From the NCBI GenBank assembly GCA_000310025.1, contig FN648404.1:175574-239573 (forward strand): a stretch of DNA of 64,000 nt. Direction: 5' to 3'. Of the stretch, positions 10,060 through 64,000 are shown piece by piece. The notes beneath the pieces were generated by a model, which saw only the letters and a list, made by a program, of their open reading frames with translations, ran no database searches and was not told the DNA's origin. This DNA comes from Ectocarpus siliculosus (lineage: Eukaryota; Sar; Phaeophyceae; Ectocarpales; Ectocarpaceae). The translations under genes were made by a program, and so were the position numbers. Every line of letters starts with the position of its first letter. Position 1 is the first letter of the stretch.

Positions 10060-11480
10060 CGGAAGACTCAACTTGTTGTTGTCCCCCCCTTTATTGGTGC
10101 TCTGGTGTACGCCGAGGGATTTATCCTACGTGTGTTTTCGGGCGAGATCAGAGACGTTGAAATAGTTTCTTCGCATACCGGTTGGTATTTTATGGTGTAT
10201 GGTTTTGTTCGCGACGATGGGACGCTCACAATTTGACCTGCCTGCAGCATTCGTCATTCGTAAAGATTAATCGGAATGAACAACGTAACTGGATTTGGTC
10301 GTAATCGCGATCATCATCTGGTAATTTTAGTGCTTGTCCCCGTGTGGTCCGGAGTTTAGGTCCGAGTGGCTTCAACCATCGTCTTACATCTTCCTAGTGC
10401 TCTGTTTTGCGCTGGGTGCTTTTCATGGATCCTGATCCTGCGTGTGTTTTCGGTGGGCTGGCAGAGACGTTGAATATTTTGTTTCTCGTACCTGTAGGTA
10501 TTTAATGGTGTATGTCTTTGTTCGCGACAATGTGACGCTCACAAATGGACCTGCCTGCAGCGTTCTTCGTTAGCAACCATTCATCGGAACGAGTTACGTC
10601 ACCGGGTTTGCTGGTGATCGCGATCATCATCCGGTCATATTTGATGTCTCCCATGGCCCGGAGTTCAGATCCGAGTGGCTTCAACCGCCGTCCTCCCCCT
10701 TCTTGTTGCTTTGTTCTACGCTGGGTGCCTTTTCGTAAATGCTAAGCGTGAAATCGGTGGGCTGACAGGGACGTTCAAAGATATTGTCTTGCGTAACTGT
10801 TGGTATTTTATGGCGTATGTCCTTGCTCGCGACGATGGGACACTCACAAACTGACCCGCCTGCAGTGTTCGTCATTGGCAACTATTCATCGGAATGAGTA
10901 ATGTAACCGGGTTTGCTCGTGATCGCGATCATCATCCGGTCGTTTCGTTATCATTTTGTTACTTGTTCCGTACGCTCCGGAGTTAAGGTCCGAATTGCTT
11001 TAACCACCGTCCTCCCCTTCTTGGTGCTATTTTGTACGCTGGGTGCCTTTTGTGGAACATATGCATGAAACCGGTGGGCCGGCAGGGACGTTCAAAGACA
11101 TTTTCTTCGCGTAACTGTCGGAATTTTATGGTGTATGTCTTTGTTTGCAGTGATGGGACGCTCACAAATTGACCCTCCTGCTGCGTGATCGTTGGTAACC
11201 ATTCATCGGAATGAGTAACGTCACCGGGATTGCTCGTGATCGCGATCATCATCCGGTCAAGTTTGCACTGGTCCCGTATGGTCCGGAGTTCAGGTCCGAA
11301 TGAGTTTAACCACTGTTCTACCCTTTCTCGGTGCTCTGGTCTACGCCGAGTGATTTTCATGGATCCTGCGAATGTTATCGGTGGGCTGGCACAGACGTAA
11401 CAGGTTTTCTTCGCGTACCTGTAGGTTTTTGTTGTGTATGTATTTGTTCCCGAGGATAGGACGCTCACAAACTGACCTGC
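10060..11480 (+). repeat. Tandem array of about 310 bp, four to five copies
   Basis: The marker GAYRATGKGACGCTCACAA recurs at about 10213, 10526, 10831, 11150 and 11452 (spacing 302-318 bp). Each unit also has TTGGTGCTCT, TGGTATTTTATGG..TATG, GATCGCGATCATCATC and GTCCGGAGTT blocks. The GATCGCGATC core is itself a perfect palindrome. No coding potential is conserved between units. Confidence 0.85.
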
Positions 11481-11489
11481 CCGCATATT

Positions 11490-20527: not shown

Positions 20528-20549
20528 TACAGTTAGCGTCCGCAGTTAA
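20528..20549. mobile_element. Left tip of MITE copy B, cut off by the piggyBac insertion
   Basis: TACAGTTAGCGTCCGCAG then TTAA matches, as a reverse complement, the right end of MITE copy B (31073-31094, which reads TTAACTGCGGGCGCTATC, then TGTA). The rest of the MITE resumes at 30534, just beyond the piggyBac element. This shows that the piggyBac element landed on a TTAA inside the MITE terminus. Confidence 0.8.
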
Positions 20550-21091
20550 CCCTTTCGTGACTGGGTTATTTCTGGATCTTCCGCGTTTTTTTTTGTTCTG
20601 CCGGGACCGAATAGACCGATGAGTCATGAGACACACACACACGACACCCGCACTTGAACGTTTGCACGTTTGTTTGCGCACCAACAGGTTCCCACATGGG
20701 TCAACCGCACGCACCCCATGGTGCCACAAAGGTTTAGTGCCCAACAGCAGCGTAACCCTCACGTGAAGAATGTGATGAGTGACCGATAACTACACTGACT
20801 GCTGTACTGCTGTATGTAGGTGCTGTCGGAAACCGGAGGAGAGAGAGAGGAGAGGGCGCCGTATTTCTTTACCCCAAACACGATTACATGGTGATAGTCT
20901 ACATGGATACAGCAGCAGCAGTAGAGATACATCGCATGCACAGCAGTTCTACCCCGCCGCCGATGCAGCACACTGGCGCAAGGCATGGCACCGCCTCCAA
21001 TGCCACTTGGTTGGGTGGTAAATCCAGCGGAGACAAGAAGCACACACGCACGCGGTTTTGTTTGTTGGATGCATGCATGCGAAACGAAATG

Positions 21092-21140
21092 AAAAAGCAC
21101 CAGCAGCAGCAGCAGCAGCCCGCCGCAGCAGCAGCAGCAA
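21092..21140 (+). repeat. CAG/GCA trinucleotide tract
   Basis: Interrupted CAG and GCA triplets; a second, shorter CAG/CAA tract lies at about 21466-21500. Both sit just upstream of the start codon chosen for the accessory gene, so they are probably in its leader. They would encode Gln/Ala runs if the upstream frame is used. Confidence 0.75.
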
Positions 21141-21511
21141 GCACGAGCCGCGCGAGAGATAAACTATGCCTTGTGGTGGCCGGTTGGTTGAAGACGGACA
21201 AGGAATACACTCGAACACACACTCGCGCAGGAGAACTCGGGGAGAGGCCTCGTAAGCTTGGCCTTCAGTTCTGCAACCACATTCCGAAGGCAAGGAAGAA
21301 GGCACACAAGTCAACAGCGAGAGCATGCTTTATCGTGCCAGATAAAGACAGGTTTTATCATGCCTCCTATCGTGCCTGTAGTCACGAAAACCCTCTCAAA
21401 AACGCGAAGGCACGGGGGCGGGTGTCTCTTTTTGACACTTTGTCACTCCGCCACAGCCTGCCAGCACAACAGCAGCAACAACAGCAGTACAGCAGTACCA
21501 ACATCACCACC

Positions 21512-22763
21512 ATGGACCCAGAGGACATCGCTCAGTTCTGGGAGGCCAAAGCGGCTGAGTGGGACCCAGTGAATGCTCCCCTAGTTGTGTGGGACGAGCT
21601 GGTTCTCATCGCGGACACAACACCCCAGCTCCTGCCCGAGGCGACATCTGCTGCAGCCAGGGCGGTTGGGAAGCGGTTCTGCTGCCACGGGGACAACGAG
21701 CCCCAGCCCCTCCCAGACATAAGGGACCTGGCAGCAAGGAGGACCGCAGCTCAGCAGCACCCCGGACTCTGCGGGTACCACCACTCCCGCTGGATCGGGG
21801 ATGTAGATTTCGCAAAGGCAGCCGAGAGGAGCTCGGGGGGGCAGGTCACAGCGAAGCGTCTGAGGAATCAAGTAAGTATAGTACAATTGATATTTGGCAA
21901 CCCCACAAATGATGGGCTGCTGACCCAGATCGGTTGTGCACCTGCTGTGCGCGTTGCACCTCGTGTATTATAGGTGTGCTTCACGTTCAGCTTTGTTTGA
22001 CATGGTGGCTTGTAAGAGTGCTACAACAGTACACTAGGCCCACAAACTTCAACCTGGACTAACGTGCGTGTGTTTTTCGAGCCTGCGGATCAATGCAGCT
22101 GCCAGACAGATCATATCACCACACGAAGTAGACAGGAAAGAGGGATGAGAGACCTGAAAGACGCGTTTACAGCAACCCTATCCCTATGAACCTCCGCAAT
22201 GCTCAGCAAATGCTCTGGAAAGACAAGCGGCGCCCAGCGCGTCGACTCCCCTTTTGAGACAGATATGGTGTTATCTTCCGTATCAGTTAGGTTGGAGACT
22301 CTCCCATTTCGTACGAATAGGCTGGCAGCCCGCAGCTTTGTACTCCCCGCATTAGACAGTAGTAGGGGTAACGATGTACTGGGGAGGCCGAGCATAATTT
22401 TCTGTCTTGTCCGAAGTTAGGTTTTGTAATCCGAACGGGCGGTTAGTAGTCCGAACGGAGAAAAAGACGCACGCGCCGCCCCATTGCGTGAACGTCTGTC
22501 TCTCACAGATACTGCATGCCACGTAACGTTTGTTGGCTCTCCATTTTCCCACGAAAGACTGGAGTGCACGCTCTAAAAAAACAAGCCTACGTCGTCGTTT
22601 TTTCCCCCGCAACGTGCAGGCTTCGTTCGACGTGAGCACCCGCCTCAACGCGAGGGGTCGTGGCGTTCAAATCACGAGGAGGGACTGCTTCACGCAGGCG
22701 TGCCGCGCGGTGTGGCCGGGAGACGAAGCCATACCAGCGGCCATTGCGGAGGCATTGTCGTGA
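21512..22763 (+). CDS. Unknown two-exon accessory gene of the piggyBac element
   Basis: Exon 1 is 21512-21871 (MDPEDIAQFWEAKAAEWDP...), exon 2 is 22620-22763 (ASFDVSTRLNARGRG... to TGA). The donor GTAAGT and acceptor GTGCAG are strong and both junctions are phase 0, giving about 167 residues. The start is chosen for its CACCACCATGG context. The frame is open further up to 20888 through Gln/Ala runs, so a longer N-terminus is possible. Exon 1 is acidic at the start and has RFCCHGD and GLCGYHHSRW, which could bind metal. I recognise no family. Position inside the element, opposite the transposase, suggests an element-borne accessory protein, but a captured host gene cannot be excluded. Confidence 0.55.
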
Positions 22764-24031
22764 TTCTCGAGCGCGTGTTTTAGGCTGATCATGGAGCCTG
22801 AGGGGGTGGGGTGGGGGGGTGGAGAGGGTTTCGTACTTACAAGAGTTTCGAGCAGACCCTCAAGGTTTGCGCTTGGCTAGTTTGCAGGGCGTCGTGCCCC
22901 CGCATGACTTTGAGTTCGCTGGGTTTGTCGTTCAATTCGCTGGGGTTATTTGGAGAAAGAGTGCTGCAAGGCACAACTCGGTGGAACAACCGATGGTGCA
23001 ATGGTGTGATCTGAAAATTCCGTATGTTTCGTCGCATGTTGCAGGCGCACTCGCCGGGAGATGTGTATTGCATTTTTCGCAGAGATCAGCGCCTTGGTTT
23101 CGAGATGAAGAAATGGAATAAACATGGAACAAATGATCTTGCAAGTATTCACGACTTGATCGCATGAAGGTCTCCGGAATGTCTGTCATTGGCACACGGT
23201 TGGATTCCGATGCCGTTTGCGGTCTCTGAACTACTGGTGAGCACCACCGGCACGTGGTGTGTATGACGTTGTCGCACGAAAGGACTAGACTACACCGCAC
23301 GCAGTGAAAAAACTAAAGTGCCAGGAAAACGTTGTTTATCTAGATGCCGAAGACTTCTTTCGATTTTATCTGCAAACCTTGGTATCTGCAAACCTTGTAC
23401 ACTTCGTACTCCATTCCTTGTCTACGTGCGAACATGTCTGTCGACCAAAGCACGGGATACCGACGCCAAACCTAAGGCTCTTGCCACATAGGTTTCGGGT
23501 TAAAAACGACACACAACGAGCGATACACGAGCCGTGGCTAATCGCAACAACACTGACAGTAGTCACAAGCGAATGGGGGCTAAAGGGGGGGGGGCTAAAA
23601 ACTCACTACCGCAGGTGACACCGCCGGCGCCCACCAACAGTTGCCCGACAAGCACTCTTCACCGCATATCCCGGAGGACGCTTCAGACTCTAAAGACACA
23701 CGCTTTCAGAAATAGCGCGGAATAAAAGACCTACAATATTGTGATTCAGTAACTTGCACTTTATCTCGCAAGGATGAAAACGATCGTACTTCGACCGCTA
23801 CATGATACAGATGGGTGGTAAACAAGTACACAACACAAACGCCCCACACTATAATACCACTGCTATCGGGAAGACACAACAGGTAAACGACGGAGTAAAA
23901 CATTTTCATGACGGACGGGAAGATGATGCGCTACGATCAGTCTGCCTGCCAAAAAATATGTCAAGGGACCCTTACACGAGTCGATCCCTGTTTCCTCCGC
24001 CCGAAACACTCGCAACAACAACAAAAAACGG
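22764..24031. other. Non-coding middle of the piggyBac element
   Basis: This stretch separates the 3' ends of the two convergent genes. I see no exon, repeat or RNA gene with support. It should hold both polyadenylation regions. Confidence 0.5.
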
Positions 24032-27000
24032 TCACGAGCACCAGTTCATATCCTTCCGTGTCCTTTTTCCGAACTTCGAGGCCTCCCGTTCAGCCCGTGC
24101 GGCCCTAGCGTGCCTCGCCGGGTTCTCGAAGCATCCCTTGCACATCAAAACCCCCCCGCCCCCCTCCCGCCCTGCACCGCAGAACGCCTCGCAGGCACAC
24201 CCTTTTCTTGTCGTTTTCTTGCATCCGGGGTACATGCACTTGCGTTTTGTCTTAATGTGAACGCTCCCCCAAACGTCCTTCGGGGGGTTCCGTATCTTTG
24301 ACCTGTCTCCCCCCCTTGTTGAGGCTACCAACACCGCACCTCCCCATGAGCTCCGTCGACATCTGTTCGTCCCAGTCCGACCTCTCAAGATTGGCCAACC
24401 TGCGGAGCTCCTTCACCACTCCCTCCAACTCCATCGACGACTCAAGGTCTAGGTCTCCTCTCTCGAGCCTCTCCTTCGCTTCACCGTCCCAGAAGGCTAC
24501 CAAAGCCTTGAACATCACGAAAATGTTGGTGAACGTCTGCTCAATCTTGGCCTCCATCACTCGCCGCCAGTAGTTCGTGCACGCCTTGTGGTCATGGGCG
24601 TGGGAACCATTCTGTTGGTCGGCCGTATCTACTCCCCCCATGTTGGCCACGTAATCCTTACGCATCCACGGCTGCTGTAGCTCCATGGGTTTCCCCTTCT
24701 GCCCAGCTTTTGCGCAGGCTGGACACGCACGAAAAGGGGCAGGCAGGCGGGGGGCAGGCGGAACACATGGGTCAGGCACCACACTTGCGGCTGCGGCGAC
24801 GACGAACTGGATGGAGGTCGTCGGACGTAGCAACCTATTTTTACCCCGGCGTAGCATCAGCCCCTGTCAACACTACAATGCTCAAGCCCCAAGCACGTTC
24901 CCGGTCGGTGAGAACAGCCTGTGTGACGAACCGAATACTAAAGGCATGAACCCGAGCCGCTGCATTTTGGCAACACCAAACTTTGAACTCCATCAACCTT
25001 TGCACGAACCAGTTTGACCGACATGCTACTCGAGCGAGGCATCCGACATGAAGACGCAGAAATAAAAACATGAATCTGGTCAACAACAACAAAAAAGGTC
25101 ACCTGTAAGGTAGAGGTGCGAAATGGTCGTCGCCGCCGTCGTCGTCTTCCTTCTTGGGCTGGCCGATGGCGGCGCGAGGTTGCGCGAGGTGGATGGTGCT
25201 GCACAGGATGATATCCTTCGAGTCGAGCCACTGCACGAATGCGACATTGCCGGCGTGGGCAAAGTGCATGTCTCCCCGCTTGACGGGGATGCGATCGAGG
25301 CTCTGCAAGAAAGGGATCGCGCCAGCGGTTCGGTTAACCCGGCACGTACCCACCGCGAAGATGTCGTGGGCCGCAAGACACTCGAACAGTGTCGGGCTTG
25401 TGAAGTAGTTGTCCATTGCGATGTGCACGCCAGAGCCGTCGATTTTGTCACCGAACTCCTTGCAGGCGTCGAGCAGGACATGTAGAACGTGCCGAGTGGT
25501 CCGTCCCAGAGGGCAGTCAGACCACTTCCTCAGCTTGGGATCCCCCGAAAATCCACCCTCGACGCTGCTGACGAAACAGTACCCCGCGACGTCGCAGATC
25601 GCGAGCATCTTCACGCCTGCATTGGAACAACGTGAATAGGGAAAAATGGTGGAGCGAATTAACAAGGCGGCGCAGCAGTCAATCGTGCCCGTTTGCACTC
25701 TATTCGAGTTTGCCGCTTGAAACTCGTGGACAGTCATTGACGGTTCCAGCTCCGCCATTTTCGGCACCGCCGAGCTCTGTGTAGCAATCGAGCTTTGGAT
25801 TATGCCCACGGGCATGATTTCTTCATGTGACCTAAACGCCAAATGTTCCTTGCTCCTATTTTTCCAGTAGAGGGAGAGGGGGGGGGGGTCAACTCCACAA
25901 AGCAAAAATGACAACTCCACCACATGGTGGCCCTTGAAAATCGAATACTATACAAGGTCTTCGCCCATGTCCCCAGCCGCCGAGCCCTCACACCGCAAGG
26001 CCGTCACAAGGAAAACACACATTCGGCAGGAATCGTCCATACAACACGAAACACAAACCGCGTACCGTGGGTGATGGGCTTCTTGGGCTGGTGTCTCATG
26101 AGGAAGTGCGCGTACCTCGACACAGTCTTCACCATCTGCTCGTCGTAGCACAGCCACTGGTTGAAGTCCATGTTTTCCGTCCACGCGGTGTTCAAGATGT
26201 CTTCGAGCTCTCTGCCGGTGAAGCGACGTCAAGATTAGCACGGAGGTGTGGCGTTGGTTAATCTGTTGTAGAACATTCGTGGGACACGAACGGACATACG
26301 AATGCTCGCCTATTGATTACACACACCAACCACGCTAGTCCGTAGCTATGATCATCCCAACCGTACGCTACTGTAGTGGTCACGTGTAGTATTCCACGGG
26401 GAGGGCGGGTGGTGTACAACTGTACGCTACTGTAGTGGTCACGTGTAGTATTCCACGGGGAGGGCGGGTGGTGTAGGGCAACGACAGGTACAACGACATG
26501 AACCCTTTGGATTTGGATTCTAGGGTACTCGCCGGCTTGGAGGCCGTTTTATTTCACCACATGAAAAAATGGAGGAGCGTGGTCCAACAGTCAGAACGCT
26601 CGAAGTCTCCGACGGGTAAAACTCACCTGATGTGCCACTTCGAATCGAAGTCCGGGTTAGGGGTGTTGTCCTCGTCCAACAATCGAGGAGGAGCGTTGCC
26701 GTCCGAGCAGTGGATGAAACGGCAGTACAACAGCTCGAACAAGTCACGCGGCATGCACGCCCTCACTAGAGGATAGTCGTCGTGCAACGATCTACTCCAG
26801 TGCTTCCTCATGCGCGTTTTCTTGGTGAGCCCCATCGTGATCGTGATGCCCAGCATGCCGTAGATGTGCTTGCGCTCGAATGCGGGTTCCGGCAGGGTGA
26901 CCCTGCCTAGAGTTCTCGTCTTCTTCATCTGATGCTCCTTGCGCTTCTCCGTAGCTCCGGGGGGTGGTGGTGTGGTGCAAAGGTTCACGTACTTGTTGGT

Positions 27001-30000
27001 CTGGAAAAGTATCACGTTTCGCGCGGAAGAGGTCAGGGACAACAAGACGGAGCGAAGATTAGCATATTCGCCCTAGAGGTCGCGCCGAGGTGTCGTATAT
27101 ATACACAATGATTGTTCATGCAAGCCGTGGCAGCACAGACATGTTTGATTAAATTAATCCGCATACGCCTTCCGCGGGTGTCTTGGAACGTAAGCAATAC
27201 CGCAAGGGGCCACAACAGACTGTGTTCTCAGGCATCTACCTAGTACCCGCTTTCAATTGTTGGGTTGGTCGGGTGGATATCGGTAATCAAATTACAACAT
27301 ACATAACAGGGATCCCGCGCGCTGGATAGGGGGGGGGGAGGGTGCTTCTCTACAGGGAGTACATTCCGCGGTATTGCATCCGCCCTTGCAAACCACCCCA
27401 TGCACGATACGCTGGTACGTAGCACGTCAGGAGGGAAGTATGCATGAACACCGCATAAACCCCCGTGTGTTTGACAATCTTGATGAGCTGTGATCTACAT
27501 TCGGCCAGTATGATTAGGCGACCAAGGCATGCAGACGACATCATGCAGTGTAAACACCAACAAAGGGCATACAATTCATCCCGCCCCCCCCCCTCCCCCC
27601 CTTCCCGCGGAACTACTTTCAAGTCCGACGCATAACGGCTCGGTCTCTTACTTGCGTGCAACCCCCCTAGTGAGTTGTTCGAGTGCAACTTAATAAGGAA
27701 TGCGACCACACGAAAACACCAATGCTCACCTTTTGCACGAAAAGATCTACTGCCTTGTCGGGGAACATCATGTTGAAGCACGTCTTCATCAAACCACTCA
27801 GCGGGAACTCTCCGTTCTCGTCGCGGCCGCCCATGAAGGTATCGAGAGAGGGCAACTTCGATCGCGCGGACGCCGACAGCGAAGCAGCGCTGACCGCTTG
27901 CCGCCGGGTTCTCTTCTTGTGGTCCGTCGTTCCCGCAAAGTCAGGAATGCCGCGGTCAGTCCACGCCACCTCCGGGGCCTCCTCCGCCTCAGCGTTCAAC
28001 TCCTCCTGCTCCTGCTGCTGCTGCTTCTCTAGCTCCTCTCTCTCTTGTCGCTCCTCCTCCTCCACCTCCTGCCACGGCCGAAGCTGTTTTTTTTTTCCTT
28101 TTCTGCCGCTTTCTTGAGCCTCTCCTTCTCCCTGTCGCGTATGGCCTTGAGCTGGGTTGAGCACGTCGTCGGCAAACAGCGGAAACAGAGCGGCAGGTGT
28201 GTCAATTCATACCCTGCCGTGTTGTGTTCAATCATCCGAAAAAAAATAAAGTCGTACGAGGCGACGGTGTCACTAACACCTACGAATCGAGCGAGCGAGA
28301 GATTCACGTGAAACTGACACGGCGATCAAAAGTAACACCATACAGGGCCAGTAGGGTGTTCAGGTCACGCACATGCATTTACATACTCCGAATCGTGAAC
28401 TCGACATTCGTTGCCCCCCTGCCAACATTGGAAACCACACCCGTGTTGAGCAACAGGAGCCAGGCACGGAGGCGTCAACATGATCATGCAAGCAACCAGG
28501 TGCTTTTTACCAACACTTCTAAGATTATTTTTGGTAGAGACTAGCGACCACACGAGGCGAAACAAAGTGCCTACCTAGACACGCGTTTGTTCAGCGTTGA
28601 TAGGGCACTCTCTACTCGGTATTCCAAGCGAAAAAAAAAACGTAAGAAACTGCTACAGCAGTATTGATTCGCACTATTTATCGGACTCAACTTTTGCACC
28701 ACCATAAATCGTCGTCTTCTCTTAGGTCCGCCTGTTCGCCTGGAAAATGCCAAGAGAAAAGTCTACACGAACACAAACCCACCTTTAGACCCCGCGCCCT
28801 CCTCTTGTTGCTCAGCAAGTACGCCCGCCTGTACTTGAGCTCCTGGATCTTCTTCATGGCGGCCACCACCTTCTTCTCGTTCTGCGACATGCTAGCGAAG
28901 GAGCCCTGGGTTCGCTCGTGGTCCCCCCCCCCGATGCTGCCGTCGGAATCATAGTTGGCTTCGTCTACTTGGCCGTTGCTCTTCACCGATTTCCTCCTAC
29001 CCGTCGGCGTACTCTTGCATTTCTTTGCGGCACCCCTCCCCTCCCCTGGTGCACCCCCCGCCTTGCGCTTCCCCGGCACACCAACCGCCTTGCGCTGCTT
29101 CCCCGGTGCACCCCCCGCCTTGTGCCTCTTGCTGTCCCCTGGCTGCCTCTCGGTTGGTCGCTTCACCCCGACCTTACTCCCGATCTTCGCCTTGCTTTTC
29201 TTTCCCGCTGCAGCCTTTCCCTCCGCTTGCCGGCTGCTGCTGCTGCTGTTGTTGCTGTTGCTGCCGCTTGGTCTCATGCTGAACTCGGGATCGTCCTCCT
29301 CTTCTCCGTCCACCTTTGCGGACCCTGGCGCTTTCTTCCCGGCCGTGGCGCTCGCCGACGGCACCGGCGCCGCCATTCCTAGCGCTTTCTCCTTTGCAAC
29401 TCTGACGACATCGATGAAGGAAGTATGTACGTTGAGTCCAAGCTGCAGACGGTCGAAGTGGTTGTGCTGTTTATGGCCTGCCTCACCTACACCCTCGCGC
29501 GCTGCCCACGGATCGTCGTGTTTCCGATAGAGCAGATGCACCCAGCGATCCCCCTCCTCGTCCATTTTGTCTTTTTTCTCGAACAAGAACATGCCTGCCG
29601 TGAGGGCTGCTGAGTACGGCTGAACTGTGCCGTACGTGGGGCTTGGCTCCCACAACATGATGTTCACCCCGTACTCCGACGCCAGAAAAGAGAACCAGGT
29701 CACGTCAATCCATTTTGTTGTTGCACTTAGCTGGGCTTTCTCGCGAAACCAACCGACCGTCTTATCCTCCGGCGCCGTCATTTCTTCCACGGCAGCTCCT
29801 AAAACATCCGGTATACGCACACTCCGGGCCCGCCCAAGCTGGTCTGGTGAGAGTACAGCTGTCAAGTCCTCAACACCGGATGCGCCAAGAACATGTTCCG
29901 TGGCTCGACGGGCGACCACGCTCCTCATGTTCTCTGGGGTGGGGGCGGCCCTTGTTCTACCGAGGCAAACCTGCAGACCCGCGGACATCGCACTAAACCC

Positions 30001-30345
30001 GCAGTGGCCATCCGGCTTTACGGTATACACACCAGCGCGGTCGGGCAAGACCATAACCCTCCCACCTCTTGTCAATTCTGTGCTGCAAATGATGCGCGAC
30101 GCAGATCCATCGATGTGCTGATGTACCCGTTGGCCCAACGCAGCCGGCTGGGGAGCTAGCTCCTGTTCCTTGCGAACGTGATACACAGGAACCCCGTCCA
30201 TAGCGCTCGTGCGAAAAATCGCAACAAGCAGGAGGAAAAACAGCATCATTATCGCGTTTCTGCGTGCTGGACTGAGTTCCACAGCAGCACAGCAGCAGCG
30301 CGGGATGCAGGGTGCTGCGGAGCATTGCAACTCCCAGGCTTTCAA
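24032..30345 (-). CDS. OTU-like protease / piggyBac DDD transposase fusion, six exons, two frameshifts
   Basis: Exons: 28783-30345, 27730-28151, 26627-27000, 26066-26211, 25103-25616, 24032-24834. All introns are GT/AG and the phases agree. The safest start is ATG 30199-30201, giving about 1,226 residues; an upstream ATG at 30345 would add a hydrophobic MMLFFLLLVAIF segment. Exon 1 reads like an OTU cysteine protease (KPDGHCGFSA, Cys about residue 67; WIDVTW; WVHLLYR, His about 222), then a Lys/Pro-rich basic linker. A coiled coil spans exons 1-2. Exons 3-6 are piggyBac: IYGMLGITITMGL, then catalytic Asp codons at 25591-25593 (AICDVAG), 25411-25413 (AMDNYF) and 24627-24629 (GGVDTAD), and a Cys-rich tail (CMYPGCKK...CKGC). 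One-base slips are needed at an A10 run (28087-28096) and a G7 run (24309-24315). Domain calls are by motif; that one mRNA spans all exons is inference. Confidence 0.8.
26363..26475. repeat. Two-copy 59-bp tandem duplication in intron 3
   Basis: The block beginning GTACGCTACTGTAGTGG at 26363 is repeated at 26422 essentially unchanged, inside the intron at 26212-26626 of the transposase gene. It contains a CTACTGTAG word. Confidence 0.85.
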
Positions 30346-30533
30346 TTTTCTGTATAGGGGACGTGCTGTTTCTGTCCCCGGTCGTTACTTTGTTTCTTTT
30401 CGAGCGGTCTAGTCGTACCGTCGAGCCGTCGTCGACGCAGGTATCCACAGCTCAATTCGGTTCGAAAGTTGTCGCATATAAGAGTTATCGTGCCTGCTAA
30501 CATGCCCGATTCGGGGGTGTAGTCACGTAAGGG

Positions 30534-31094
30534 TTAAGGAACGTCAAAATCGGATCGAGCCTCAATCCCTTATTTTTGGGTGGAAGGACCAGCCGAAGTC
30601 GTCCATTTTCTCACGAAGGATTTCATATTTTTTTGGACTGTCGCATCCTCCTGATTCTCTTACTTCTTTGAAGTACTTCGCATTTTGTCATTCAGCCTTT
30701 TGATATCTGACGGCAATCCACGTCTTCAAGCCCTCAAGAGAGGCGGTGGCGAGTGCCATTAAACCCGTACAGCGGACAACATGTGGTTGTCCACGGTGCG
30801 CGGGAGTACCACTCTCTCTCCCTCCTACAAAAAACATACACTCTTCAGCTAGGTAGGGGGGTGGGAGCACCGAAGGAGCAGCAGTGGGACGTTTCTTACT
30901 GTACGCGCTCCCCCAGCTACCCCTTGTTGCTTACGTCTTGGGGGTATCGCACCATCATGTTTCTTATTGGGGCGTTTCTTATGTTGTTGCCGAGATTGAG
31001 CTGTGTTTCTGAGCCCTTTTTTCTTTTTTTTTTCTTTACAAGTTGAGCCCCAATTTCTAAACAGAATATTTCTTAACTGCGGGCGCTATCTGTA
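30534..31094. mobile_element. MITE copy B, main part
   Basis: It continues the MITE whose tip is at 20528-20549 and ends with GTTTAAGAAA-type inverted repeat GCAGTTAAGAAAT (complement strand) at about 31062-31094. It matches copy A (14628-15183) block by block: AAAATCGGATCGAGCCTCAA, GGACCAGCCGAAGT, CTGATTCTC, GTGGGACGTTTCTTACTG and TTTCTTATTGGGGCG. No coding frame. It was present before the piggyBac element arrived. Confidence 0.8.
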
Positions 31095-55769: not shown

Positions 55770-58146
55770 CGCTAGCGTTCTCCGCGCCGACACCGGAAGG
55801 ATCTGCCTGTCCAACAACGTCGTGTGGATCAACCGCCGCACCGCCGTGCCGGCGCCGGTACCGGCCAGCGGGGGGGGCTCTTCGGTCACCGCGGCGCCCT
55901 CGCCGGCCGCCGCCGTTCCTGCAGCCGCTGCCGCACCGCCACCGCCATGGGCATCGCGGACGTACACCTACACCCCGCCCACAGCGACCACCGCTTCGCC
56001 GCCGCCCACTTCTCCGTCGATCTTCACAGGGTCCGGAGCCGCGTCGCCGATCTCCACGGCGTCTTCGAGTGCACCGCCGTCCACCGCAGCCACGCCGCCC
56101 CGTCCACCGCCGACAACACCGCCCGCAAGCGCTGGCGCTCCCGCTCCCCATCACCCGCCGCTTTCACAGCGAGTCGTCAGAGAATTGGGCGAGAAGGAAA
56201 CCAGAGTGCATGGCCGTACACGCGGCGACCGAGTACGCTTCATGGATGAGCAACAGCAACCGCCGTCGCCGTCAGGTGGCGGCACCGCTCTCCAACACCG
56301 CCTTGGGCTGCTGTCGATGATGGGCAAGGACGCGCTCGTCTCGTCGCTCGCCACCCGGGAGGCCGTCGATCAAGGACGTCGAGACCTGCCACCGTCCGCC
56401 AGCATCGCCCCTCCCGCTCCCCCACCGCCGCAAGATACGAGTTTAGCAGGCCATGGGAGCGGGGGGGCCGCAGGAGCTGGAGGGCCGGGGGGCCTGCACA
56501 TGTTCGTAGCAATGTTCGCCACCCGCGAGGACGTGGAAGCTACTCTTCGTGCCAAGCGCCCTCCTGACAAGACGCCGGACCTCCCTCACTGCCTCGCCAG
56601 CGACCTCCGAGTGCCGAAAACGTTCAAGGAGGCCATGCGGTCTCAACATTCAGAGTTGTGGGATGATGCAGTCGGTCGGGAGTTTTTCGGTCTGTTGGAT
56701 GCGGGTACTTTTAGTCCGGTTTAGCAACCAGTAGAAAATTTCATCAACGCCAAGTGGGTATTCAACTGTAAGGCAGACGAGTACGGATGGCCGACGAAAT
56801 TCAAGGCAAGACTTGTAGCGCGGGGGGACATGCCGAGGGCTTCGATTGATTTTGGAGAATTGTTTGCACCCACCGTATCCGTGTCTAGTGTGCGTTTGTT
56901 GGCAGCTTTGGCATGTGAGCAAAACCTTGACTTGTGTCATTTCGATATTCAGCAGGCGTTTGTGCAGTCTGAGCTTGAAGAGGATGTTTTCATGCGTCTC
57001 CCGCAAGGTTGTGGTAGGTTATCTGGACTGATCGTGAAGCTATGCAAGAGTCTGTACGGTTTGAAGCAGGCGTCACGACAATGGCATGCGCACCTGACGA
57101 GGTGTTTGTTACTTTTAGGATTTGTGCAATGTTTGGCGGATGCATGTGTTTTTCGATTTATGGAGGATGGATGTGTGATCATGATCATCGTGGTCCACGT
57201 GGATGACATTTTTGCCGTAGGGCAGAAGGAGAGATGTGACAAGTTTGGCAGAGACCTCAACGAGATGGTCCCCGTGAAGAACCTTGGGGAGTTCAGGTGG
57301 TACTCCGCGTGCTTTTACCAGAGAGATCTAGAGAGAGGCCTTTTGAGGATCTCGCAGCAAAGGTTTGCAGAAGAGTTGGCTGCAGAGTACGGCGTAGAGT
57401 GGGGGAAGAGTGTGCCCTTGCCTGTGAGCATGAAGCTCGCCGACTTTGACGAGGACGAAGCGTGTGCTGACGTCCCTTTCCGCGAGTTGGTAGGATCCCT
57501 GATGTGGTTGGCCACTCAAACCAGGCCGGACATCGCGAATGCAGTACGAGCAGTAGCGCGGTATTGCGCGTCTCCCAAGATGGTGCACTGGAAGGCAGCA
57601 CTTGGTATTTTAGGGTACGTGCGTAGGACGAGTTGGATGGGGATTACATTTGAGAGGGGTGTCGTGACTGGCATGAGCATGCAGGTGTTTGTGGATGCTG
57701 ACTATGCGAGCAAGGCAGCAGACCGTAGGTCGGTTTCAGGAGGACTAGTGATGTGTGGGGGTGGGTGTGTGACTTGGTTTTCGAGGACGCAGAAGTGCGT
57801 TACGCTTTCCACAACGGAAGCAGAGTATGTGGCAATTGCCGACGTCTTGAAGGAGGTGCTTTTCTTGAGGCAAGTTTGGCGTTTTATGTTGCCAGATGCA
57901 GGTATGCCGTGCATTCAAATCTTCGAGGATAATCAGGGAGCGATTCAGATTGCGCACAACCCGATCACGAACTCAAACTCGAAGCACATTGATGTACGAC
58001 ATCACTTTATTAGGGAACTGGTAGAGAAGAAGGAGATTTCGATTACCCATGTGGCGTCGGAGTTTCAGCATGCAGATTTCTTGACGAAGGCTATCAGCAA
58101 GGAATCTTTTGCGTTGCACAGAGACTTTGTGATGAATTTGCAGTGA
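55770..58146 (+). pseudogene. Copia polyprotein remnant: integrase tail, reverse transcriptase, RNase H
   Basis: From the LTR junction the frame reads VLRADTGRICLSNNVVWI, the end of a copia integrase region. A long Pro/Ala-rich linker follows, then reverse transcriptase from PKTFKEAMRS onward with FDIQQAFVQ, GLKQASRQW and the catalytic HVDDIFAVG. RNase H follows with DADYAS, STTEAEY and EDNQGAI, ending KHIDVRHHFIRELVEKK... at TGA 58144-58146. One in-frame TAG (56722-56724) splits the protein between linker and reverse transcriptase; the rest is open. IN-RT-RH order is diagnostic of copia. It cannot transpose by itself because upstream functions are missing, though its RT/RH domains look otherwise undamaged. 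Confidence 0.92.
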
Positions 58147-62519: not shown

Positions 62520-64000
62520 ATACAAATCTGCCGGAACCAAAACACATAAAAAGTGTTTGGCGGCGGTGGTAAGGGAGGGGGGGAGCGATTGTCAACAGTG
62601 ATACATACCTAGTAAGGGATGTTAAACTCGGGCAATTACCCTACGCTCCACAGGCATTACGAAATAGAGTTACAGCAATGCAGGGTCCACACACACAAAT
62701 AGTGCGCGGCGGCTGTGATGGTGGAAACGTTTGATTATCAATAGTGCCACATATAATTCACGACACCGAGATCCATGCCGGAACCACACGCATACATAGG
62801 GTGTGGCGCGTACATACAGAGTGCACATACTGTACCGGATCCACACACATCCAGAGTGGTGGCGGCCGTGGGTGGCAGGCTTGTTTGTTAAACATCGCTA
62901 CTTACCAGGGTTGTTGCTCAAGGAGCGATTCACGCCTAACAACAGAGTACATACACCGGAACCACACACATCAATAGTGGGTGGCGGCCGTGGGTGGCAG
63001 GCTTGTTTGGTAACAGCACTACTTATCAAGGTGGTTGCTTGGAAGCGATTCACGCATAACATACAGAGTACATATGCCGGGACCACACACATAAATAGTG
63101 TGTGGCGGCCGTGGTGGGTAGACTTGTTTGTTAAACAGCGCTACTTACCAGGGTTGTTGCTCGAGGAGCGATCCACGCATAAATACAGAGTACATATGCC
63201 GGGACCACACACATAAATAGTGTGTGGCGGCCGTGGTGGGTGGGCTTGTTGTTCCAACAGCACTACTTACCAAGGTTGTTGCTTGAGAAGCAATTCACGC
63301 TTGTGCACAGAGGGCATGAATGCCGGGACCACACACATCAATAGTGTGTGGCGGCCGTGGTGGGTAGACTTGTTTGTCAAACAGCGCTACTTACCAAGGT
63401 TGTTGCTCGAGGAGCGATTCACGCATAAATACAGAGAGTACGAATGCCGGGACCACACACATCAATAGTGTGTGGCGGCCGTGGTGGGTGGGCTTGTTGT
63501 TCCAACAGCACTATTTACCAAGGTTGTTGCTCGAGGAGCGATCCACGCATAAATACAGAAATGCCGGAACCACACACATAGATAGTGTGTGGCGGCCGTG
63601 GTTGGTAGGCTTGTTGGTAAACAGCGCTACTTACCAGGGTTGTTGCTCGAGGAGCAATTCACGCATAAATACAGAGTACATATGCCGGGACCACACACAT
63701 AAATAGTGTGTGGCGGCCGTGGTGGGTGACTTGTTTGTTAAACAGCGCTACTTACCAGGGTTGTTGCTCGAGGAGCGATCCACGCATAAATACAGAGTAC
63801 ATATGCCGGGACCACACACATCAATAGTGTGTGGCGGCCGTGGTGGGTGGGCTTGTTGTTCCAACAGCGCTACTCACCAAGGTTGTTGCTTGAGAGGCAA
63901 TTCACGCTTGTGCACAGAGGGTATGAATGCCGGGACCACACACATCAATAGTGTGTGGCGGCCGTGGTGGGTAGGCTTGTTTGTTAAACAGCGCTACTTA
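62520..64000 (+). repeat. Satellite of about 122 bp, running past the right edge
   Basis: The marker GCCGGGACCACACACAT recurs at about 63077, 63199, 63322, 63446, 63563, 63684, 63805 and 63929 (spacing 117-124 bp); diverged units lead in from about 62529, 62776, 62835 and 62956. Each unit has AGTGTGTGGCGGCCGTGG, GGCTTGTT, AACAGCGCTACTTACCA, GGTTGTTGCTCGAGGAGCG and TTCACGCATAAATACAGAG. The length is not a multiple of three, so the open frames crossing it are by-products. Homogeneity rises to the right, which suggests the window ends inside an active array. Confidence 0.92.

Follow-up and report, generated by a model that had tools for sequence, protein, structure and literature searches.

Predicted fusion of an OTU-like domain to a piggyBac transposase in Ectocarpus siliculosus

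We describe a piggyBac lineage, recognised from gene models, whose transposase is predicted to carry an OTU-like module at its N-terminus and which is present as a broken copy in the window (the whole stretch of 64,000 nucleotides of E. siliculosus DNA that was analysed). At the level of the gene model the fusion is real, although the copy in the window is broken. A preliminary description of this DNA had proposed that the transposase itself carries the OTU-like domain, and this is supported by the conservation of the junction and its phase, by linkage of both parts at 19 of 19 loci, by a linker shared with related transposases and by near copies that keep one frame. The predicted protein would comprise, in this order, a hydrophobic leader, an OTU-like cysteine-protease domain, a basic linker, a charged helix, a DDD transposase and a cysteine-rich tail. 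Our best explanation is an autonomous-type piggyBac element with a spliced transposase gene, of which the predicted product is a single protein of about 1,200 residues, the OTU-like part acting in deubiquitination; taken jointly, these elements have in our judgement somewhat better than an even chance of being correct.

The borders of the element were placed by comparison with other copies in the genome. Those on contigs C66, C53 and C162 match the window element from end to end at 99.4-99.6%, C53 doing so in two pieces, and end at 20546/30537. The window element shows the hallmarks of piggyBac, with TTAA at both borders and short terminal inverted repeats starting with CCC, and the TTAA-CCCTT end reported earlier was indeed found at 30537. 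On the 5' side TTAA is present in three of five copies, C66 and C3 deviating, and on the 3' side in the window, C66, C53 and C162. A 3' end at about 23969, at a CCCTTACACGAG stretch, was rejected because the copies remain aligned past this point, down to 20546. The mobile unit (20546-30537) exceeds the stretch that had originally been flagged (24032-30345). Within intron 3, a 59-bp unit occurs in two tandem copies (26358-26475). A truncated copy, L008 (contig C25, 4433555-4438108), keeps the OTU exon and loses its similarity to the element inside intron 1, at element position 2110. Elsewhere in the window, two long frames on the plus strand resemble, by their motifs, a copia-type reverse transcriptase (56725-58146) and a fragment of a gypsy-type integrase (1925-2722), and satellite-like arrays with 124-bp and 313-bp units occupy 62841-64000 and 10149-11485.

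Table 1. Position of the element, of its two predicted genes and of their candidate functional parts within the window.
Feature	Position	Strand	Basis or remark
Whole piggyBac element, including TTAA at each end	20546..30537	-	9,992 bp; borders from copies on C66, C53, C162
5' terminal repeat CCCTTACGTGACT	30521..30533	-	Sequence; divergence of five copies just beyond the repeat
3' terminal repeat CCCTTTCGTGACT, plus-strand reading	20550..20562	+	Sequence; copies stop here, then TTAA
Exon 1: hydrophobic leader, OTU-like domain, basic linker, first part of charged helix	28783..30249	-	
OTU-like domain, core used in alignments	29416..30105	-	
Candidate catalytic cysteine of DGHC	30001..30003	-	DGxC in 16/16 loci read
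Candidate catalytic histidine of NHFD	29458..29460	-	NHFD in 14/16 loci read; falls opposite RHYD of Helitron-type OTUs when the profile alignment is extended
Exon 2: rest of charged helix; linker leading into transposase	27730..28151	-	Frame broken in window copy
Exon 3: transposase, DDE_Tnp_1_7 part	26627..27000	-	Pfam match; splicing of copies
Exon 4: transposase	26066..26211	-	Splicing of copies; matched in divergent members
Exon 5: transposase catalytic core, CDVAGY and MDNYF	25103..25616	-	Pfam match; splicing of copies
Exon 6: MGGVDxADQ and cysteine-rich tail	24032..24718	-	Frame broken in window copy
Second gene, exon 1	21512..21871	+	ATG as assumed
Second gene, exon 2	22620..22763	+	54-56% identical in C16, C187, C122

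The element holds a six-exon gene on the minus strand, running from 30249 to 24032. The long first exon with DGHC that had been noticed at the outset was recovered as part of an open frame (28687-30384, minus strand) that contains this motif and has its first in-frame ATG at 30249. The piggyBac motifs attributed to the exons behind it were borne out by Pfam: DDE_Tnp_1_7 matches the exon-5 frame with E=1.2e-13 (51.5 bits) and the exon-3 frame with E=4.2e-5 (23.4 bits), both above the curated cut-off of 22.4 bits, and the exon-6 frame under this cut-off (E=0.033). MDNY, with the second aspartate, lies within a significant match to piggyBat, and the third (VDxADQ) within a weak additional stretch; the first catalytic aspartate is presumably that of CDVAGY, assigned by its motif. 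The C-terminal tail, judged by eye, is cysteine-rich in the frames of C66 and C3.

The proposed splice sites 28783/28151 and 27730/27000, like those of the three other introns, follow the GT-AG rule both in the window copy and in four near copies. It had also been claimed that all donor and acceptor phases agree. This statement is true of the near copies and wrong for the window copy, since C66 and C3 keep the frame whereas the window copy loses it in exons 2 and 6. Five copies were spliced (window, C66, C3, C53 and C162). Spliced unaltered, the window copy loses its frame three times overall, in exon 2 and then in exon 6, through three differences of one base in length, relative to other copies, that fall within or next to homopolymer runs; these frame breaks may reflect decay or an assembly error. 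C66 and C3 each hold a single frame from exon 1 to exon 6 that contains one in-frame stop, while the frame breaks in exon 4 in C53 and in exon 6 in C162. None of the five spliced copies has a fully open frame.

We then considered the linkage of the two parts throughout the genome. Exon 1 has at least 64 matches at no fewer than 35 loci by our own grouping, more than expected by chance. Visual grouping of the 40 exon-5 matches gave 28 loci, of which 19 show at least 59% identity, 8 show 44-48% and one is a fragment of 39 residues (C19), which was excluded from the set of 19. An exon-1 match lies upstream, in the same orientation and within 10 kb, at every one of these 19 loci. The match includes the OTU part at 17 of them; in C234 and C474 it is limited to the portion of exon 1 that follows the OTU part. 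A genome-wide exon-1 search revealed no such upstream match at the 8 loci of 44-48% identity nor at the C19 fragment. In the divergent members C16, C187 and C122, the OTU part is 33-34% identical, exon 5 56-64% and exon 3 61-64%. Their exon order is identical, and intron 1 keeps its position and phase 0 with a length of 600-632 bases. The usual context of the intron-1 donor is lost in C184.

The eight loci of a sister clade provide a further comparison. No OTU match was found at the four that were read, and at three of these four the linker that stands behind the OTU part precedes the same transposase exons, as judged by statistics without composition correction. In single BLASTP comparisons, the C50 linker matches that of the window with E=1e-6 and that of C16 with E=3e-5; in shuffle controls on four pairings with C50 and C98, 0, 0, 0 and 1 of 2000 shuffles were as good. 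As this linker is common to OTU-less transposases, the part of exon 1 adjoining the intron belongs to the transposase. A sister clade devoid of the OTU part yet endowed with the linker thus shows the OTU-like domain to be a module of the transposase and not a neighbouring gene, a module either joined to an existing transposase or lost from it. The preliminary description had named related elements without the OTU domain as evidence against a fusion. The sister clade consists of just such elements, but the pattern that it forms is that of a modular domain, not of a false fusion.

Two readings that dispense with a single fused protein were weighed against these data. The broken frame of the window copy might recall an unrelated OTU-like gene that happens to sit beside a piggyBac copy, and nothing else favours this idea; it is contradicted by the linkage at 19 of 19 loci, the common borders and the same exon order in divergent members, and we rejected it as extremely improbable. 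Alternatively, the gene could be expressed as two separate proteins: transcripts left unspliced or ending early would yield an OTU protein acting in trans, and others the transposase. The exon-1 frame does run on into intron 1 for some 31 codons before it meets a stop, and the truncated copy L008 ends within this intron. However, divergent members preserve the donor, the acceptor and the phase, the tail past the donor is not the same in window-type and C16-type copies, and the linker of exon 1 is common to OTU-less transposases, which makes two separate products very unlikely.

The identity of the N-terminal domain was examined at 16 of the 35 exon-1 loci. DGxC followed by a glycine and an aromatic residue is present in all 16, and NHFD in 14, C11 reading NYFD and C184 being unreadable there. 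The domain displays the pair of motifs expected of OTU proteases, a candidate catalytic cysteine in DGxC and a downstream histidine followed by an aromatic residue; in C187 the two motifs lie in different frames. The distal WxH motif reported at the outset is conserved (W[VI]HLL), but judged against the genuine OTUs of the genome the likelier catalytic histidine is the one in NHFD.

Profile comparison with 14 OTU stretches, drawn from 22 OTU matches in the same genome, gave a local score of 26.0 that was attained by none of 150 column shuffles (best shuffle 21.0; reversed profile 13.3). The similarity is strong only around DGxC. Global alignment to the 14 stretches gave no signal, 85 of 150 shuffles doing no worse, and the score of the second half of the domain alone was attained by 3 of 150 shuffles. 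In an alignment with the Helitron-type OTUs that spans the whole domain, the cysteine motif, a YxVNI strand, a WxHLL strand and the histidine motif line up in an uncontrolled register. The Pfam OTU family (PF02338) has no match at E<=1 in any of nine members, and SidE_DUB, a different deubiquitinase family, appeared only as a hint below threshold (E=0.036). Searches of solved structures with the OTU part found no support. Two AlphaFold models, built from alignments of 9 rows, have mean pLDDT values of 40 and 38; in fold searches with the first, a Wolbachia OTU ranked 30th in the first list and a YopT domain fourth in the second, neither of which is meaningful at such model quality. Between the window and C16, pN is 0.45 and pS 0.74 for the OTU-like domain, with synonymous sites near saturation, as compared with 0.22 and 0.70 for exon 5. 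The OTU-like domain is constrained, less so than exon 5.

On these grounds we regard an OTU ancestry of the domain as probable. It could instead be a lineage-specific domain, cysteine protease-like or non-enzymatic, with a convergent DGxC. The silence of Pfam OTU in nine members, a profile similarity confined in its strength to the vicinity of DGxC with no signal in global mode, and AlphaFold models too poor for comparison are all consistent with this. On the other hand, the local score lies beyond all 150 shuffles, and the later strand and histidine motifs are in register, albeit an uncontrolled one, with Helitron-type OTUs; we consider a non-OTU origin quite unlikely. Another possibility is that the domain resembles OTUs in sequence and is not an active deubiquitinase, serving to bind ubiquitin or ubiquitinated chromatin and to steer the transposase to its sites. 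The unproven fold, with mean pLDDT values as low as those above, and the faster evolution of the domain relative to the catalytic core would fit such a role. Binding alone, however, would not demand that the candidate cysteine be kept at 16 of 16 loci and the histidine motif at 14 of 16 across about 34% identity, and this reading seems unlikely to us.

The OTU-like domain would strip ubiquitin off the transposase that carries it, or off host proteins present where transposition takes place. Such removal would let the transposase evade the proteasome for as long as cutting and pasting requires. As part of the same protein, the domain would act wherever the transposase binds. Deubiquitination by the N-terminal domain is inferred by analogy with Helitron and Ginger1 elements. 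Escape from the proteasome was earlier proposed for the VTD domains of Helitrons (PMC9741609), and a role of the Ginger1 protease domain in transposition and repair has been suggested (PMC2836005).

The element contains a second gene, of two exons and 167 residues, on the plus strand inside the element borders; this small opposite-strand gene travels with the element. It has no Pfam match and was not found at the four OTU-less loci read. A conserved hydrophobic leader (window 30249-30202, minus strand; also in L022, L025, L026, L032, L034 and L037) opens the transposase frame in the OTU-plus and OTU-less clades alike. It resembles a signal peptide, which is odd for a nuclear enzyme and could indicate membrane contact. 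In L032 and L034 (C50 and C98, both OTU-less), a Cys/His knuckle-like stretch, CGAIISRG...CGN...GFCKHH, precedes the shared linker within exon 1. A more speculative scheme, which we hold to be possible but doubtful, is a two-gene piggyBac lineage with exchangeable N-terminal modules behind the leader, either OTU-like or a Cys/His knuckle. In this scheme the transposase and local targets would be deubiquitinated in cis, the domain would possibly have been captured from Helitron-type OTUs of the same genome, and the small protein encoded on the opposite strand would act as a partner.

If the proposed mechanism is true, a jumping gene may come equipped with protection of its own from being destroyed by its host. 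Deubiquitinase-type domains are already known joined to Helitrons and Ginger1, and piggyBac would add a different transposase class with the domain at the opposite end of the protein from that in Ginger1. A further joining of this kind would suggest that ubiquitin generally stands in the way of transposition, and the presence of OTU-plus and OTU-minus clades within one genome offers a natural pair for testing this idea. PiggyBac is a gene-delivery tool in wide use, so a module that stabilises the protein would be of interest to its users.

We searched for precedents and relatives in the literature and in viral and prokaryote sequences. No piggyBac-OTU protein was found in the literature searched, mostly open papers, so that an earlier description is possible. 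Scans with short exact peptide patterns, which distant relatives would escape, confirmed no relatives of the transposase or the OTU part in viral contigs and none of the OTU part in prokaryote genomes. Four PiggyBac families are listed in a survey of transposons in Ectocarpus, where the word OTU is absent from the main text (PMC12477816). With other members of the piggyBac superfamily, such as piggyBat and PiggyMac, the element shares the DDE_Tnp_1_7 core, the TTAA and CCCTT ends and, as judged by eye, probably the cysteine-rich tail, the similarity to piggyBat lying around MDNY. It differs from them in its long N-terminal extension, with the OTU-like domain and the charged helix, and in its second gene. 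In the PiggyMac study, a coiled coil is described at the C-terminus of the ciliate proteins, and 'OTU' does not occur in the main text (PMC8086355).

Deubiquitinase-type domains borne by mobile elements are a feature that our element has in common with Helitrons and Helentrons, and the Helitron-type OTUs of the same genome also read DGxCGF. Helitrons move by a Rep-helicase protein. In the same genome they join the OTU to a PIF1 helicase; in the window element, a Pfam scan of seven frames gave no helicase match, Rep and a PIF1-type helicase being the mark of Helitrons. Among the PIF1-helicase proteins of the genome with a C-terminal OTU, some read DGxCGF as the element does; those at L043 and L044 (C26 and C103) are probably Helitrons and possible donors of the domain. 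OTU or VTD domains have been described in Helitrons (PMC6431247, PMC9741609). Ginger1, as far as its description goes, likewise unites a transposase with an OTU or Ulp1 domain within a mobile element, placing it at the C-terminus of an integrase-type transposase (PMC2836005). Its core is a Gypsy-type integrase followed by the protease, a combination that the window element does not have, with its DDE_Tnp_1_7 core and an OTU-like domain at the N-terminus. Finally, a piggyBac transposase joined to another protein is reported in CSB-PGBD3 (PMC12062965). As reported there, CSB-PGBD3 is a fusion with a host gene, whereas the predicted fusion described here lies inside the mobile element and has multiplied with it.
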